From positions 372,001 to 436,000 of the forward strand of contig NZ_MJUX01000004.1 in assembly GCF_001927245.1 (NCBI RefSeq): 64,000 bases of DNA, written 5' to 3'. Within the stretch, counting starts at the first letter, position 1; each line of letters starts with the position of its first letter. Shown here in pieces: positions 46,086-53,256 of the stretch. A model generated the notes under the pieces. That model searched no databases and was not told where the DNA came from. It saw nothing but the letters and a program-made list of their open reading frames with translations. This DNA is from Acuticoccus yangtzensis. GTDB taxonomy: Bacteria; Pseudomonadota; Alphaproteobacteria; Rhizobiales; Amorphaceae. The position numbers and the translations under genes were made by a program.

Positions 46086-47972
46086 CTACTCGGCGGCGTC
46101 GAGGTCCTCTCCGTCGGCGTCCTCGGCCGACCGCTTGATCGTGTCTGGCCCGCCGCCGGGGCGCTGCGCGTTCTTGCGAGTCTCCTCGTTCACGTCGTCG
46201 GCACGGCGAAGGGCGGTGTCCCTCCCGCCGTCGCCGTCCGTCTCGCGCCCGTCGCCCGTGTCGCCGCCCGTGTCGCTCATGTCGCCAACATCGCCGGTGC
46301 CCGCCGCGTTGTTCGCGATGATCGAGAGACGCGTATGCGGCAGGACCTGCGGCGCGCCCTTGTCGCGAAGATAGGCCAGCAGCTTTTCGCGCATGCGGCA
46401 GTGCAGGTCCCACGCCGCGGTGGGGTTGTTCGCCGTGCAATAGAAGCGCACGGACATCGACTCCTCGTCATGGTCGATAACCTGAACCTTCGGCTCCTCG
46501 CCCTCGGACCATTCCTCGTCCTCGGCGGCGAAGCGCTGGAACACCTGGCGCAGCTCCTCGACGTCGGTGCAGTGATCGAGCTTCAGAAGCACCGGAAGGA
46601 TCATCTTGGGCTCGGCCATCGTCCAATTCTCGAACGGGTTCGAGACGAAGTGCTTCACCGGGACGATGAACCGCTTCAGGTCCCAGGTCCGCAGCTGCAC
46701 ATAGGTGTAGTTGATCTGCTCCACATAGGCCCAATGGTCGTCATAATAGACCGCGTCGCCGATGCGGATGGGCTTGGCCAGCGCCAGTTGCAGCGAGGCG
46801 AGGATGTTGCCCAGGACCGTCTGCGCCGCGAGGCCGAAGATCGCCGTCGCCACACCGGCCGAGACCAGAAGCGACATGCCGAAGTTGGAGAAGACCCGCA
46901 GCGAGGAGAAGGCGACCGCCAGCCCCACCACCACCACAAACATGACGCCGATGCGCTTGGCGGCCGACAGGTTCGTGTACCACTGGCGCGCGCTGGTGTT
47001 CTCCGGCGTGTCGATGTTGGACAGATAGCGGTTCGACGTGAAGTCGATGATCGTGTCCAGCGTCCGCGAGACCCCGTACACCAGCGCCGCGATGATGAGG
47101 ATCCAGAAGATGACCGAGATCGTCGCATCGGTCGCCGCGGAAAACTCGAACAGCGACGTCACCGTGATCTGCAGAAGGACGCCGATCACGAAGAGCGCGG
47201 TCGGCAGACGTCCCCGGCAGATCGCCGCCGCCACCCCGGCGATCGGAATGCGCTGCGCCACCTTCGACATCACCGTCCACGTCAGCCACGCGGACGCGAT
47301 CGCGAAAACCGCCAGGAGGGGGATCGCGATCAGCTCCCAAAGGAGGATGCCGGCGAAGGTTTCGGCCCGCAGCACCTCCGGCAGCGCCCGCTCGAACGCG
47401 GTCGGGCCGTACCGGGCATAAAGGCCGGGAATATGCTCGACGCTTTGGCGCGCGATCACCCACACGGGGTCCTGGTCGCCGACTTGGACACGGTTGAGGC
47501 GCACGGTGACCGGCCACGACGGAAGGTCCAGCGTGCCCAGTTGCAGGCTCTTGCGCGCGGTGCCCACCATCGGCTCGCGGTCGCTGCCCGTCGTGTCCAT
47601 GCCGTCCGGCCGATCCGGCAGGCGGCCGAAGTCCACGGGGATCTTGCGCTTCAGAACGAAGGAGAGTTGCTCGGCAAGGCGCGGGCCCACCGTGCGCTGC
47701 TCCTCCTCGTCGACGAAATAGAGGTCGAGCACATGGGCGGCGGCGGCGAAGTCGGACCGGTTCACGGCGCTGACGAAGGATTCCATCGCCGAGCGCGGGG
47801 TCGTGAGATCCAGGATTTCGGGTGCGGCGGGCAGACCGCCGTTCAACACGTCGATGCGGAAGGTCGGACCGCCGTCATTCTCCGAGCTTTGCGCGGCGGC
47901 GGTATTGACCAAGGCGCCGATGCCGATGGCGCTCGCTAAGATGAGTATGGCGGCGAAGCGGCCTCGCGTCAT
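46086..47972 (-). CDS. Mechanosensitive ion channel, MscS family
   Basis: The 628-residue protein begins with a signal peptide (to about residue 27), followed by a periplasmic domain of about 170 residues. Several membrane helices come next, then the MscS core: the pore helix region SAGVATAIFGLAAQTVLGNILASLQLALAKPIRIGD and the beta domain with DLKRFIVPVKHFVSNPFENWT. The last 80 residues are an acidic, Gly/Asp-rich tail. It releases solutes on hypo-osmotic shock. A ribosome site (GAGGACAGAGG) precedes the ATG, and a perfect sigma-EcfG promoter lies 109 bp upstream, so induction in the general stress response is likely. Confidence 0.92.
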   Translation of the reverse strand: MTRGRFAAILILASAIGIGALVNTAAAQSSENDGGPTFRIDVLNGGLPAAPEILDLTTPRSAMESFVSAVNRSDFAAAAHVLDLYFVDEEEQRTVGPRLAEQLSFVLKRKIPVDFGRLPDRPDGMDTTGSDREPMVGTARKSLQLGTLDLPSWPVTVRLNRVQVGDQDPVWVIARQSVEHIPGLYARYGPTAFERALPEVLRAETFAGILLWELIAIPLLAVFAIASAWLTWTVMSKVAQRIPIAGVAAAICRGRLPTALFVIGVLLQITVTSLFEFSAATDATISVIFWILIIAALVYGVSRTLDTIIDFTSNRYLSNIDTPENTSARQWYTNLSAAKRIGVMFVVVVGLAVAFSSLRVFSNFGMSLLVSAGVATAIFGLAAQTVLGNILASLQLALAKPIRIGDAVYYDDHWAYVEQINYTYVQLRTWDLKRFIVPVKHFVSNPFENWTMAEPKMILPVLLKLDHCTDVEELRQVFQRFAAEDEEWSEGEEPKVQVIDHDEESMSVRFYCTANNPTAAWDLHCRMREKLLAYLRDKGAPQVLPHTRLSIIANNAAGTGDVGDMSDTGGDTGDGRETDGDGGRDTALRRADDVNEETRKNAQRPGGGPDTIKRSAEDADGEDLDAAE

Positions 47973-48080
47973 CCTCTGTCCTCGTCGGTTCGGGGTCGGG
48001 GGCGCGGCACCATGTCCGGGCGCAGCCCTGGGGGCGGTCCGCCGGGTTCCCCCTTCGAGACCACACGTGCTCGCTCAGCC

Positions 48081-48106
48081 AACGGCAGATCGGCGGTGAT
48101 CGTTCC
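48081..48106 (-). promoter_or_regulatory. Sigma-EcfG promoter of mscS
   Basis: On the minus strand GGAAC (48106-48102) and CGTT (48084-48081) are separated by exactly 17 bases, the consensus of the alphaproteobacterial general stress sigma factor EcfG. It points into the mscS-family gene at 47972. Confidence 0.75.
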
Positions 48107-48155
48107 GATGATCGTCCCGGTCGCAGGCTCTCGCCGCGATCCGCGCACGAAAAAA

Positions 48156-48173
48156 GGGGCGCCGAAGCGCCCC
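48156..48173 (-). terminator. Rho-independent terminator of the repeat-protein operon
   Basis: GGGGCGC (48156-48162) pairs with GCGCCCC (48167-48173) around a tetraloop, which reads TTCG on the transcribed minus strand. Six A residues at 48150-48155 become a T-tract on that strand. It lies 42 bp after the stop codon at 48215. Confidence 0.93.
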
Positions 48174-48214
48174 TTCCCTCTTCTCGATCCCAGCATCGCC
48201 GGGCAGCGGCGTCC

Positions 48215-49972
48215 TCAGACGTTCGCCTTTTCCTTTGCCGCCTTCTTGGCCTCGTCGACCACGTGCTCGGCCCGTTCGGCGACGGTCTTGCCGTCGTCCT
48301 GCGGCAGGAGACCCTCCTCCTTGGCCGACTTCTCGGCTGCATAGACTGCGGCCTCGGCGGCGCGCTCGGCCCGCTCGGCCTGCTGCGCCGCGAAGTCCAT
48401 CGCCTCATCGCGCAGCGTGTCGCGATAAGGGCCGACATACTCGTCCTCGACACGGGTCGAGGGGAGCAGCGCGCCGATCAAAGCGCCCGCGGCGATGCCG
48501 ATGGCGGCGGCCGCCAGCGGTTCCTCGGTGACGAAGTCGACCACGTTGCGCTTGGCGCGGCGGCCATAATAGGCGGCGTGGTCGGCCGCCTCGTAGGCCG
48601 CGTCACGGGCGCTGTAGTAGGCGTAGGACGCCGCATCCGACACCGCATAGGCACCGGACTTGAGCTGCGCGTTGGCGTAGTCGAGGCCGTGGCGCGCCTC
48701 GTCGGCGGCGAAGCGGGCGTGGTCGTAGATCGTGTCGAGCGCCGCCGTCGCAGCGTCGCTCACGGCGTAGGCGCCGGCCTTCAACTGGTCGCCGGCATAG
48801 GCGAGACCGTGCCGCGCCTCGTCCGCAGCGAACTTGGCCTGATCGTAGGCCGCCCGCGCGGTCTCCTTGGTGGACGCGGAGACGGCGTAGGCCCCCGCCT
48901 TCAGCTGACCGGCCGCATATTCGACGCCGTGCTTGGCCTCGTCGGCGGCGAAGCGGGCCTGGTCGTAGGCCTGGCGGGAGGCCGCCTTGGCCGAGTAGGC
49001 GCCGGCCTTGAGCTGCGACACCGCATATTCCGCGCCGTGACGCGCCTCGTCGGCGGCATAAAGCGCGCGGTCATAGGCGACGGCGCCCGCGGCGGCGGCG
49101 GCGTCGCGCACCGCATAGGCCCCCGCCTTCAGCTGGCCGACCGCGTACTGAGCGCCGTGCTTGGCCTCGTCAGCGGCGAAGCGGGCCTGGTCGTAGGCAC
49201 GGGCACCGGCCACGGCGGCCGTGTCACGCACCGCATAGGCCCCGGACTTCAGCTGCGCGGCCGCGTAGTCGACGCCGTGCTTGGCCTCGTCGGCGGCGAA
49301 GCGGGCGTGGTCGTAGGCGCTCTGCCCGGCCCCGTGGGCGGCAGCACGCATGGCGTAGGCACCGGACCGCAGTTGCGCGGCGGCATATTGGGCGCCGTAC
49401 TTCGCCTCGTCCGCCGCGTAGCGCGCGTGGTCATAGGCGCTCTGCCCGGCGGAGGCGGCCGTGTCGCGCACCGAATAGGCACCCGCACGAAGCTGGGCGG
49501 CGGCGTACTGGGCGCCGTGACGCGCCTCATCGGCCGCGTAGCGGGCCCGGTCGTAGGCGCCGATCCCGGCCGCCGTCGCCGTGCCGCGCATGGCGTAAGC
49601 GCCGGACTTCAGCTGCGCAATGGCGTATTCGGCGCCGAAGCGGGCCTCGTCCGCGGCGAAGCGGGCGCGGTCATAGGCGACCTGGGCCGTCGGGCTACCG
49701 GCATAAAGAGGCGCAGGCTTCTTGTTCTGGCTCATCAGGAGCCAGGCCAGCCCGACTCCGGTCAGCGCGATCGGCAGCGGGTTCTCCTTCACCTGCCGGC
49801 CGAGATTGTTCAGGAACTCGCCGCCCTGGCCTCCGGCGGAGGTGAAGGACCGGGTGACGCTGTCGACGATGTTGGCGGTCGACAGTTTGGCGCGCAAAGC
49901 GTCGAGGGTCTCTTCGACCTCGTAGCGCTGGGCCTCGACTTCGCGCTCGATCTGCGTGGTGGAACGGCTCAT
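48215..49972 (-). CDS. DUF3618-type membrane protein with nine tandem 40-residue Ala/Tyr-rich repeats
   Basis: The 585-residue protein starts with a DUF3618-like head (residues 1-85): the helix IEREVEAQRYEVEETLDALRAKLS and a membrane segment around LPIALTGVGLAWLLM. From residue 99 to 454 there are nine repeats. The conserved tyrosine of each is at 100, 140, 180, 220, 260, 300, 336, 376 and 416, a period of 40 except for one unit of 36. A typical unit reads AYD-ARFAADEAKHGAEYA, then QLKAGAYAVRDTAA. A degenerate tenth unit, a second hydrophobic stretch (AAAAIGIAAGALIGALLP) and a Glu/Ala-rich helix follow. The composition recalls LEA-type stress proteins and amphipathic helices. Its start overlaps the upstream stop (ATGA). 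It is the last gene of an EcfG-controlled operon; the function is unknown. Confidence 0.9.
   Translation of the reverse strand: MSRSTTQIEREVEAQRYEVEETLDALRAKLSTANIVDSVTRSFTSAGGQGGEFLNNLGRQVKENPLPIALTGVGLAWLLMSQNKKPAPLYAGSPTAQVAYDRARFAADEARFGAEYAIAQLKSGAYAMRGTATAAGIGAYDRARYAADEARHGAQYAAAQLRAGAYSVRDTAASAGQSAYDHARYAADEAKYGAQYAAAQLRSGAYAMRAAAHGAGQSAYDHARFAADEAKHGVDYAAAQLKSGAYAVRDTAAVAGARAYDQARFAADEAKHGAQYAVGQLKAGAYAVRDAAAAAGAVAYDRALYAADEARHGAEYAVSQLKAGAYSAKAASRQAYDQARFAADEAKHGVEYAAGQLKAGAYAVSASTKETARAAYDQAKFAADEARHGLAYAGDQLKAGAYAVSDAATAALDTIYDHARFAADEARHGLDYANAQLKSGAYAVSDAASYAYYSARDAAYEAADHAAYYGRRAKRNVVDFVTEEPLAAAAIGIAAGALIGALLPSTRVEDEYVGPYRDTLRDEAMDFAAQQAERAERAAEAAVYAAEKSAKEEGLLPQDDGKTVAERAEHVVDEAKKAAKEKANV
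48611..49678 (-). repeat. Nine tandem 120-bp coding repeats
   Basis: The DNA under the 40-residue repeats repeats every 120 bp, with one 108-bp unit. Copies share long identical stretches (for example around GCCTCGTCGGCGGCGAAGCG on the plus strand), implying recent duplication or conversion. It is coding sequence, not CRISPR. Confidence 0.92.
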
Positions 49973-50460
49973 TGCATCTGCTCCTTCGCAAGCTCGGCGT
50001 CGCGGCGCACTTGGAGGGCCGTGCGGTCCGGCGTGAGATTTTCGACATTGAGGTCGGTCGTGCCCGAGCGGATCAGGAACGCACCGACGGCCGCGAAGAT
50101 GGCGCCGACGATGAGAGAGGCCCAGCCTGTGTTGGCGGCCACCACGTCGGCGGCGGTGTTCTCGGCACCGCTCGCAGCCACGGCGGTGATGAGGTTGGCA
50201 ACGGCCACCACCAGCGCCTGGGTCAGAACGATCAGCGCGACCAGGACGACGATGGCACCGGCGGCAATCTTGCCGACGCCCATCTGAAGCTGGTTCACCT
50301 TGTCGTGCATCTCCGAGCGGATCAGCTCCCCTTCCTTACGGAAGAGATCGGAGACGTCGCGGAAAAGCTTCGTCAGAAGGTCCGGCAGCGAGCGGGTATG
50401 GGCAAGGGCCTCGGCCATCGCGCTCGGCTCGTCGGGGCGGTGAGGGGCATGATAGGTCAT
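49969..50460 (-). CDS. Phage-holin-family (DUF1469-like) membrane protein
   Basis: The 163-residue protein has a cytoplasmic helix (SLPDLLTKLFRDVSDLFRKEGELIRSEM) followed by two membrane helices, IAAGAIVVLVALIVLTQALVVAV and GWASLIVGAIFAAVGAFLI. This is the layout of the 'phage holin family' or DUF1469 proteins, which in rhizobia occur in stress operons and are not known to be real holins. I start at the ATG at 50460; it lies 10 bp after the upstream gene, and its stop overlaps the next start by 4 bp. Confidence 0.87.
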   Translation of the reverse strand: MTYHAPHRPDEPSAMAEALAHTRSLPDLLTKLFRDVSDLFRKEGELIRSEMHDKVNQLQMGVGKIAAGAIVVLVALIVLTQALVVAVANLITAVAASGAENTAADVVAANTGWASLIVGAIFAAVGAFLIRSGTTDLNVENLTPDRTALQVRRDAELAKEQMQ

Positions 50461-50470
50461 GGATGGCGCC

Positions 50471-51004
50471 TCACTTCGGGGTGGAGTTGGCGGGGGCGAC
50501 GGGCGGACGGGCCGCCTGCGGCGTGTAGGATGCGGGCGGCGTGTAGCCGGTGTGCGGCGCTGCCTGCCCGGTCGGCGGATAATGCGGCCGCTCGCCGCTG
50601 GCGCGCAGGAAGCGTCCTGCCGCAAGACCCGCCAGAACCGCACCGCCGACGAAGACGGCCGGGTTGCGCCGGGCGAAACCCTTCACCGACGTGACGACCT
50701 CGTCCATCGAGGTGTGCGACACCGAGCTGGCGATGTCCTCGAGGCTCGAGGCGGCGTGGGAGACGAGGCGCGCGGCGAAATCCTGATCGCGCTGGTTCAG
50801 CTCGTCGGATGCGCGGCGCACGGCCGACGCGAAATCGTTGAGCCGTCCGGCCGCGGTCGCCATGCCCTGCTCGGCATAGGCGTTGGCGGTCCGCTTGGCT
50901 TCGTCCGCATATTCGTGGGCGGACGATTTGATTGTGTCGGAGGCCTCGTGCAGCTTGTCGCTGGCGGACTGGGCCTCACGCTCGAAGTTCTCTTTCGTCG
51001 ACAT
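50471..51004 (-). CDS. DUF883-like, nutrient-deprivation-type stress protein
   Basis: The 177-residue protein has a hydrophilic amphipathic helix region (residues 1-105, rich in Ala, Ser, Asp and Glu), then the membrane-associated motif RRNPAVFVGGAVLAGLAAGRFLRAS typical of DUF883/YqjD-like ribosome- or membrane-bound stress proteins. It ends in a Pro/Tyr/Thr-rich tail. The ribosome site GGAG precedes the ATG. Such proteins are often described as nutrient-deprivation-induced in rhizobia. It is the second gene of the EcfG operon. Confidence 0.82.
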   Translation of the reverse strand: MSTKENFEREAQSASDKLHEASDTIKSSAHEYADEAKRTANAYAEQGMATAAGRLNDFASAVRRASDELNQRDQDFAARLVSHAASSLEDIASSVSHTSMDEVVTSVKGFARRNPAVFVGGAVLAGLAAGRFLRASGERPHYPPTGQAAPHTGYTPPASYTPQAARPPVAPANSTPK

Positions 51005-51067
51005 TGGAGCTGCTCCTCAGGCTTTGTCTGGCAATGCCAAGATGTGGCTAGGATGAGCCGGGACGGT

Positions 51068-51142
51068 TTAGGCGAGGCCCAACAGGCTGAGAATGAAGAG
51101 GACCACCACAACCAAGCCGACCAAATAGATGAGGCTATGCAC
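51068..51142 (-). CDS. 24-residue hydrophobic membrane peptide
   Basis: A GTG at 51142 with a perfect ribosome site (AAGGAG, 8 bases upstream) opens a 24-codon frame. It starts M-H-S-L-I-Y-L-V-G-L, is almost entirely hydrophobic (Val, Leu, Ile) with no charged residue after His2, and ends L-L-G-L-A. It would form a single membrane helix. Very small peptides beginning MHS-I/L-IYL occur in other alphaproteobacteria. It is the first gene after the EcfG promoter, with about 45 nt of leader. It is too short for usual gene finders. Confidence 0.8.
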   Translation of the reverse strand: MHSLIYLVGLVVVVLFILSLLGLA

Positions 51143-51186
51143 CGGCTTTCTCCTTTTCGTTCATTTCGCGAGACAGTTATGTCTTG

Positions 51187-51212
51187 AACGTCGCGGCCCG
51201 TGGCGCGGTTCC
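51187..51212 (-). promoter_or_regulatory. Sigma-EcfG promoter of the repeat-protein operon
   Basis: On the minus strand GGAAC (51212-51208) and CGTT (51190-51187) are separated by exactly 17 bases, matching the EcfG general stress consensus. Transcription would start about 37-40 bases before the GTG of the 24-residue peptide and read through the whole operon to the terminator at 48156-48173. Confidence 0.85.
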
Positions 51213-51534
51213 GTAGGGAGTGGGGTTATGGACAAAAGATCATGTCCTTCGACATCGCATCGGCAGCCGGCATACGCACGGCCGCACCTCTCCCCCTATC
51301 AGCGGAGAAATCTGGAAAAGCGGATTTCGTTCCCAATGTGATCGCGGATGAAAGCGACGGCCGACATCGGCGGGGCAGCACCGCATGCAGGATGGAAGGC
51401 GTGGCACCTCACGGCGGCCTCGGCGGCGTCACCGGGTGCGGGTGAGATATACGGCGGGGCAGGCTGCCCGCCGCGTTCATTATCGCGGGCGGCGGTGGCG
51501 CCGGCGACCGCGGCGGCGAACCGGCGGCGCCGTT
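51213..51534. other. Intergenic region, no gene seen
   Basis: The 322 bp between the EcfG promoter and the end of the ABC exporter gene contain only weak open frames without ribosome sites. The stretch near 51230-51350 is less GC-rich than its surroundings, but I see no clear element. Confidence 0.5.
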
Positions 51535-53256
51535 CTATTCGGCGGCGAATTGCGTGCGGTGCAGGCGGCTATAGACCCCGCCGCGCGCGATCAGATCCGC
51601 ATGGCGGCCCTCCTCCGCCACACCGGCCGGCGTCACCACGACGATGCGATCCGCCCCGCGGATCGTGGCCAGACGGTGGGCGATGACCAGGGTCGTGCGC
51701 CCCTCCGACAGCGCCGCCAGCGACGCCTGGATCTGCCGTTCGGTTTCCGAATCCAGCGCCGAGGTCGCCTCGTCCAGCACCAGGATGGGCGGGTCCTTCA
51801 AGAAGATGCGCGCGATGGCGAGGCGCTGCTTCTGCCCGCCGGACAGCTTCACACCGCGCTCGCCGATCACCGTGTCGAGGCCGTCCGGCAGCGCGGCCAC
51901 CATGTCCTCGATCCGGGCCGCGCGCACCGCCGCTTCGATGTCCGCCTCGCTGGCGCCGAGACGCCCATAGGCCACGTTCTCGCGGATCGTCCCGGCGAAC
52001 AGGAACACGTCCTGCTGGACGATGCCGATCTGCCGGCGGAGCGACGCGGTGGTCATGTCGCGCACGTCGATCCCGTCGACGAGGATCCGCCCGGCCTGCG
52101 GCTCGTAGAAACGGGGCAGCAGCGAGCAGATGGTCGTCTTGCCCGCGCCGGAGGGGCCGACGAAGGCCACCGTCTCCCCGGAGTTGATGGTCAGGTCGAT
52201 CCCCTTCAGCACCGGAAGACCGCGCGTGTAGGAAAAATCGACCCCCTCGAAGCGGATGTCCCCCTTCAGCGGCGGCGCGTCCTTGGCGCCGGGCCGGTCG
52301 GTGATGTCCGGCGCAATGGCCAGAAGATCGAGGTAGGAGCGGAAGCCGGCGATCCCCTTCGGATACATCTCCATCACGCGGTTGATCTGCTCGATCGGCT
52401 TGAAGAACACCGTCACCAGCAGCAAGAAGCCGACGAAGCCGCCCGCGGTCAGCTCGCCCGCGATGACGAACCACGTGCCCGCCACCATCACGATGAGCTG
52501 GATCAGCCTGAGGCCGAGATAGGACATGGCCGTGTTCACCGCCATCAGACGGTAGGCGCGCAGCTTGATGGTGCGATATTGCGCGTTGTCGGCGGCGAAG
52601 AGACGGGTCTCGTGCGCCTCGTTGGCGAAGGCCTGCACCACGCGCATGCCGCCGATATTCTCCTCCAGCCGTGCGTTGAAGGCGCCGATGCTGCGGAACA
52701 GGCGGCGGAAATTGTTCGTCATGCGCGTTCCGACGGCCATCGTGAGCCAGCCGATGAAGGGAACGATCGCCGCCACGATCAGCGCCAGCTCCACGTTGAC
52801 CGAGAGCATCAGGATGAGCGCGCCGACGAACGTCATCACCGCGAGGAAGATCTCCTCCGGCCCGTGGTGGGCAAGCTCGCCCACCTCCTCCAGATCCTTC
52901 GTCACGCGCGCGGTCAGGTGCCCGGTCTTGGCGCTGTCGTAGAAGGAGAAGGACAGCTTCTGCAGGTGGTCGAAGGCGCGGCGCCTCAGCTCGGTCTCGA
53001 TGTTGATGCCGAGCATGTGCCCCCAATAGGTGCAAACCGCCATCAGCGCCCCGTTGAAGAGGTAGACGACCAGGAGCCCGCCCGCCGCGAGGAGAATGAG
53101 CGGCCAGTCGCCCGCCGGAAGGAGCCGGTCGATGAAGACCTTGATGGCCATGGGAAAGGCGAGTTCAAGGAGTCCGGCCAGAACGGCACTGCCGAAGTCC
53201 AACACGAAAAGGCCTTTGAACGGGGCGTAATAAGCGAAGAACTTTCGCAAGATCAT
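51535..53256 (-). CDS. ABC exporter, fused permease-ATPase (MsbA-like)
   Basis: The 573-residue protein starts at the ATG at 53256 (MILRKFFAYYAPFKG). Six membrane helices occupy residues 15-300, and the second half is the ATPase. Walker A is GPSGAGKTT, the Q-loop is in QQDVFLFAGT, the signature is LSGGQKQRLAIARI, Walker B is PPILVLDEATSALD, and the switch His is in LVIAHRLAT. This is the half-transporter layout of MsbA and other lipid or drug flippases. The substrate cannot be told. The gene is monocistronic and divergent from the GFA gene. Confidence 0.9.
   Translation of the reverse strand: MILRKFFAYYAPFKGLFVLDFGSAVLAGLLELAFPMAIKVFIDRLLPAGDWPLILLAAGGLLVVYLFNGALMAVCTYWGHMLGINIETELRRRAFDHLQKLSFSFYDSAKTGHLTARVTKDLEEVGELAHHGPEEIFLAVMTFVGALILMLSVNVELALIVAAIVPFIGWLTMAVGTRMTNNFRRLFRSIGAFNARLEENIGGMRVVQAFANEAHETRLFAADNAQYRTIKLRAYRLMAVNTAMSYLGLRLIQLIVMVAGTWFVIAGELTAGGFVGFLLLVTVFFKPIEQINRVMEMYPKGIAGFRSYLDLLAIAPDITDRPGAKDAPPLKGDIRFEGVDFSYTRGLPVLKGIDLTINSGETVAFVGPSGAGKTTICSLLPRFYEPQAGRILVDGIDVRDMTTASLRRQIGIVQQDVFLFAGTIRENVAYGRLGASEADIEAAVRAARIEDMVAALPDGLDTVIGERGVKLSGGQKQRLAIARIFLKDPPILVLDEATSALDSETERQIQASLAALSEGRTTLVIAHRLATIRGADRIVVVTPAGVAEEGRHADLIARGGVYSRLHRTQFAAE

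Follow-up and report, generated by a model that had tools for sequence, protein, structure and literature searches.

The 27-residue YohP of Escherichia coli is a stationary-phase protein that reduces both the potential and the fluidity of the membrane and quietens metabolism (PMC12719787). In Pseudomonas, PA3040-3042 form a YqjD/YqjE operon under the stress sigma factor AlgU (PMC11302039), and in Sinorhizobium meliloti the small protein SEP6, found in the membrane/P100 fraction, had been missed by annotation (PMC10117765). The locus described here lies in a 64,000-nucleotide (nt) stretch of the Acuticoccus yangtzensis genome (contig NZ_MJUX01000004.1, positions 372,001 to 436,000; the window hereafter), where a putative promoter of the general stress sigma factor EcfG precedes a gene of only 24 codons. 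With a probability of roughly three in four, its product would be a genuine, EcfG-induced, 24-residue single-span inner-membrane protein with a family of its own. The elements at issue are the following:

51187-51212, minus strand: sigma-EcfG-type promoter GGAAC-N17-CGTT, GGAACCGCGCCACGGGCCGCGACGTT, a motif kept in congeners
51150-51155, minus strand: Shine-Dalgarno sequence AAGGAG, with a 7-nt spacer before the GTG
51068-51142, minus strand: predicted 24-amino-acid (aa) single-span transmembrane peptide MHSLIYLVGLVVVVLFILSLLGLA, GTG start, TAA stop

The last T of CGTT (51187) stands 45 nt from the GTG (51142), and the MHSLIYLVGLVVVVLFILSLLGLA frame comprises 24 codons and a stop, with a hydrophobic span of roughly 20 residues; every number given by the initial annotation for this arrangement of promoter, AAGGAG, GTG and frame was confirmed. 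The promoter motif was dropped as stand-alone evidence, its frequency in the whole genome being near chance: the window holds 3 isolated GGAAC-N17-CGTT sequences against 1.5 expected, which is not significant, and the EcfG-type motif has 60 matches in the organism's own genome versus 52 for the reversed pattern. It is through the comparison of genomes, not the single motif, that the combination of peptide and promoter stands far above chance.

On the comparative evidence the peptide frame is coding, its length and the residues Y6, G9, L18 and G22 being nearly fixed. Exactly 24 codons were counted in 190 of 200 copies from the fetched loci, in a search that left the stop position free, and a Shine-Dalgarno sequence with an ATG or GTG start is present throughout the family copies. 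Among 145 distinct 24-mers (about 52 effective sequences) there is no variation at M1, G9, L18 or G22, and position 6 is Y in 94% and otherwise W. Since the first regular expression fixed certain residues by design, conservation was re-measured with a hidden Markov model, itself trained on those sequences. The peptide is identical in the window and three congeners, and the window copy differs from each by 13-16 nt, all synonymous; given that 27% of single substitutions are synonymous, the probability that 13 random ones would leave every residue unchanged is about 3e-8. The prediction that the small frame would be conserved in relatives at the synonymous-site level thus passed its comparative test. 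Shorter than 50 aa, with a single transmembrane helix and a gene predicted to be translated, the product has the makings of a stress-induced small membrane protein. It lies outside every Pfam and NCBIfam model, and among open papers (subscription full texts and supplements not being covered) none was found that contains the core letters of the peptide or that joins EcfG with DUF883. The peptide would count as a new family, of a kind already known.

Copies in Alphaproteobacteria often lie directly behind what by motif is an EcfG-type promoter, alone or first in a membrane-protein operon. Taken as GGAAC-N15-18-[CT]GTT within 140 nt upstream, the motif is present in 65 of 176 distinct alphaproteobacterial upstream regions, compared with 0.8 in shuffles (largest 4), 1 for the reversed pattern and a rate of 1.6% in random windows from the same loci. 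The strict form GGAAC-N16-17-CGTT has 47 matches in the 176 regions versus 0.2 expected, and the end of the motif mostly falls 24-70 nt upstream of the start codon. The motif rate is about one third for every class of following gene (36/110, 19/59 and 7/18), and such similarity, whatever gene follows, ties the promoter to the peptide gene itself. Five more genomes of the genus also keep an EcfG-type promoter, at about -66 to -72, so that by its promoter the gene is a predicted member of the EcfG regulon in the window and in these congeners. The motif that the initial annotation had seen before the peptide is therefore conserved in the genus, and upstream of the family copies as a whole it is enriched about 85-fold. 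None of 15 non-alphaproteobacterial upstream regions contains it, as expected given that EcfG is confined to Alphaproteobacteria (PMC3892343). An AlgU/RpoE motif was sought before the non-alphaproteobacterial copies and none was found, and a sigma-70 consensus scan of both strands of 47900-51600, the only search for antisense promoters made, was negative. Within the class, the anti-sigma factor NepR has a match in 23 of the 30 genomes that carry the peptide and in 43 of the 355 others (the same 385 genomes are meant below; p 5e-14, a figure inflated by relatedness). The organism's own genome holds a NepR match (PF18557, E 3.5e-11), which, as the one component of PhyR-NepR-EcfG searched for, suggests that the system is present. 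About 150 bp from the NepR gene (G000:C12:222696-222764) lie three GGAAC..CGTT matches, two of them divergent and overlapping, as is expected for an autoregulated ecfG locus.

The window peptide is a member of an apparently unnamed family of many Alphaproteobacteria and some other Pseudomonadota. Of the 8 genomes of the genus, 7 gave a tblastn match; in the order 75 of 297 did, six of them with an E value higher than 0.1. A profile search recovered the peptide from 30 of 385 genomes in the class with a threshold of E<=1e-4, and from 46 of 398 genomes in the phylum with E<=0.001. Fourteen of the last group lie outside the class, and a limit of the family to EcfG-bearing bacteria does not hold. 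A scan of named genomes placed copies in Paracoccus, Mesorhizobium, Brucella/Ochrobactrum, Agrobacterium, Bradyrhizobium, Methylocystis, Bosea, Devosia and Reyranella among the Alphaproteobacteria, and further in Halomonas relatives, Ectothiorhodospira and Accumulibacter. Copies also occur in metagenome-assembled genomes (MAGs) labelled as other phyla, an Opitutus MAG (L220) and a Solirubrobacterales MAG (L166); binning contamination is likely for L220, which carries a Devosia-like peptide together with the membrane protein c0 described below, and both were left out of the counted spread. Against plasmids, tblastn with a 24-aa query operates close to its detection limit. In nine plasmid loci that were read, the peptide is present in all nine and in the gene table of none, the PLSDB table being incomplete by its own description, and the claim that the first product escapes annotation holds in these records.

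Downstream of the peptide gene the window contains the remainder of the unit:

50471-51004, minus strand: 177-aa YqjD/DUF883-like protein, with amphipathic helices and a C-terminal hydrophobic segment; the label is not confirmed by Pfam
49969-50460, minus strand: YqjE-like membrane protein, PF07332 (holin superfamily III), E 1.9e-18, 67.1 bits against a cut-off of 28.4
48215-49972, minus strand: 585-aa repeat protein with a DUF3618 N-terminus, 1.1e-7, over the cut-off
48149-48180, minus strand: rho-independent terminator ending the unit, -25.1 kcal/mol, z -3.07, with a U run

The spacing reported by the initial annotation was recovered exactly, with 63 bp from the peptide gene to the 177-aa gene (start 51004), 10 bp from 50471 to 50460 and a 4-bp overlap at 49972/49969, as was the closing terminator. 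Its holin-like and DUF3618 labels were upheld by the PF07332 and DUF3618 matches. Its DUF883-like label was not: the 177-aa protein has no Pfam DUF883 match at E<=1 and resembles YqjD in layout only. A cluster homologous to the 177-aa gene was found behind the peptide in other genomes. In the 585-aa protein the DUF3618 head is followed by about a dozen tandem repeats of some 30 aa of the type YDxARFAADEAKHGxxYAxxQLKxGAYAV, whose number seems variable among relatives, and then by a glycine-zipper tail (DUF883_C, 21.4 bits, under the cut-off of 27). Just past the terminator, a second GGAAC-N17-CGTT at 48106-48081 (minus strand) lies ahead of an open reading frame (ORF) starting near 47972 (minus strand), and may drive another EcfG gene.

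The peptide had initially been described as part of this stress operon and was to be sought upstream of the operon genes in relatives. It is indeed found there, heading a YqjD-like/PF07332/DUF3618 operon of the window's type in 18 of 190 deduplicated copies, but it is not specific to such operons, because 59 of the 190 directly precede the unnamed membrane protein c0 and most others have neither neighbour (about 110, an upper bound since incomplete loci were counted). Some of the latter adjoin other stress-type genes, namely CsbD, DUF3309 and DUF3096. The c0 family (YVDWxAIxAGA...GGRHRDE; 200-365 aa; for example L161:5075-6154, L145:5085-5966 and L151:5105-6010) matches no Pfam or NCBIfam family over cut-off, the best being an anti-sigma model at 26 of 100 bits; its AlphaFold2 model (mean confidence, pLDDT, 75) has four long helices and no fold match in the PDB. 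In Halomonas relatives the peptide gene is a monocistronic unit with a strong Shine-Dalgarno sequence, and a terminator directly follows the peptide in 5 of 14 non-alphaproteobacterial copies. A -10-like GCTA(C/G)(A/G)CT was read by eye, unscored, some 60-80 nt upstream in six of these relatives (L165, L171, L173, L208, L209 and L211), and the Halomonas-type copies are perhaps under sigma-S or sigma-70 control. Six loci (L057, L059, L061, L074, L077 and L163) hold two tandem copies separated by about 60 nt, with unrelated genes on one side and a gene resembling isocitrate dehydrogenase on the other.

These contexts bear on what the peptide might do for its neighbours. It could be a co-subunit that stabilises or regulates the adjacent membrane protein in the manner of CydX or KdpF, the partner being of the YqjE/DUF3618 type here and c0 elsewhere. 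The position before c0 would suit such a role, above all in Brucella, Ochrobactrum and Agrobacterium, where the peptide stop and c0 start overlap as TGATG or TAATG, and c0, listed as 'hypothetical protein', is the next gene in eight of the nine plasmid loci. Set against this are the many copies with neither neighbour, the monocistronic copies of Halomonas, the pairing of one peptide with unrelated partners and the window's genome itself, in which no c0 was found; a co-subunit is thus possible but on the whole unlikely, and the comparison shows that the peptide is independent of any one neighbour. Usually alone or before c0, it is not the leader of the window's operon, and the more general proposal, of an upstream ORF whose translation tunes the downstream genes and whose product is dispensable, is very improbable: a first place in the operon, a short 5' untranslated region and coupling to c0 in some species are what a leader would show, whereas here residues are conserved while synonymous sites change freely, length is fixed over hundreds of species, the downstream genes differ, and standalone copies exist, some of them closed by a terminator of their own.

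A membrane-acting type I toxin paired with an antisense RNA must also be weighed, as many short transmembrane ORFs found by prediction are toxins of this kind (PMC5521070), and the peptide is short, hydrophobic and in some genomes tandemly repeated before icd. The short 5' untranslated regions, strong open Shine-Dalgarno sequences, usual single copy and stress-sigma promoter speak against a toxin, and the free drift of synonymous sites gives no sign of an overlapping conserved RNA; this alternative, for which the antisense promoter search consisted of the one sigma-70 scan above, is held to be improbable. A chance hydrophobic ORF, with the true transcript beginning the operon at the YqjD-like gene, would agree with a promoter motif that alone is at chance frequency genome-wide, but it is excluded for practical purposes by the protein-level conservation, fixed length and promoter enrichment found in the comparison.

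For the EcfG-induced membrane protein favoured here, the sequence of events would begin with general stress or stationary phase, upon which the PhyR-NepR-EcfG switch would turn the unit on. The peptide would then be made, inserted in the membrane as one helix, and might act by forming oligomers, by packing against a partner in the membrane, or by both, alongside YqjD/YqjE/DUF3618-type proteins, which elsewhere are part of envelope-stress and stationary-phase responses. Its likeliest effect would be to stiffen or quieten the membrane when cells rest or are under stress, in the way of YohP; a role as leader or killer toxin is less likely. Several points weigh against this proposal. Its support comes from sequence comparison, and the counts over related genomes are not independent. 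In about two thirds of the alphaproteobacterial copies the 140 nt upstream hold no match to the motif, so there must be other promoters or looser forms of it, and seven peptide-bearing genomes of the class have no NepR match. One-sided conservation on an ideal helix, tried as the sign of a packing face, was not found (100-degree moment, p 0.996), and thus no single packing face is shown. YohP, finally, was rejected as a recognisable homologue, with a profile score of 8.8 bits in the reverse test.

It is judged somewhat better than an even chance that the peptide is a recurrent, unannotated EcfG regulon member that acts alone in the membrane and whose function is kept in other Pseudomonadota under different promoters. 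If so, it would rank among the most widely distributed of the known small stress membrane proteins, and EcfG regulon studies resting on gene tables would have passed it over; transcriptome studies built on annotated genes may likewise have missed it. Much of the envelope role of the EcfG response is unexplained, and the peptide offers a concrete candidate in many families, its invariant residues providing ready point mutants.

Among described families, that of Thivi_2564 (NF041949) also consists of small membrane proteins, and 1 of 55 peptide family members matches it weakly (E 0.013); it is a separate NCBIfam model, and one sub-significant match is not membership. SEP6 is alike by description, being below 30 aa, with one predicted transmembrane helix and conservation in Hyphomicrobiales (PMC10117765); should SEP6 be a family member, translation of the family would already have been shown. 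The window operon shares with PA3040-3042 and yqjDE the tight succession of YqjD-like (DUF883) and YqjE-like (holin-like) genes and, by prediction, control by an alternative stress sigma factor, and differs in its large DUF3618 repeat protein, the 24-aa gene in front and the EcfG-type promoter. YohP (PF25659) is likewise a very short, single-span hydrophobic protein without catalytic residues that is made in stationary phase or starvation (PMC12719787). It lacks the Y6-G9-L18-G22 pattern of the 24-aa family; the window member has no match to the Pfam YohP model at E<=0.1, and 5 of 55 family members match weakly (best E 0.011). YohP is not known to be under EcfG control in E. coli. YohP is the nearest experimentally studied analogue of the peptide, as distinct from a homologue.
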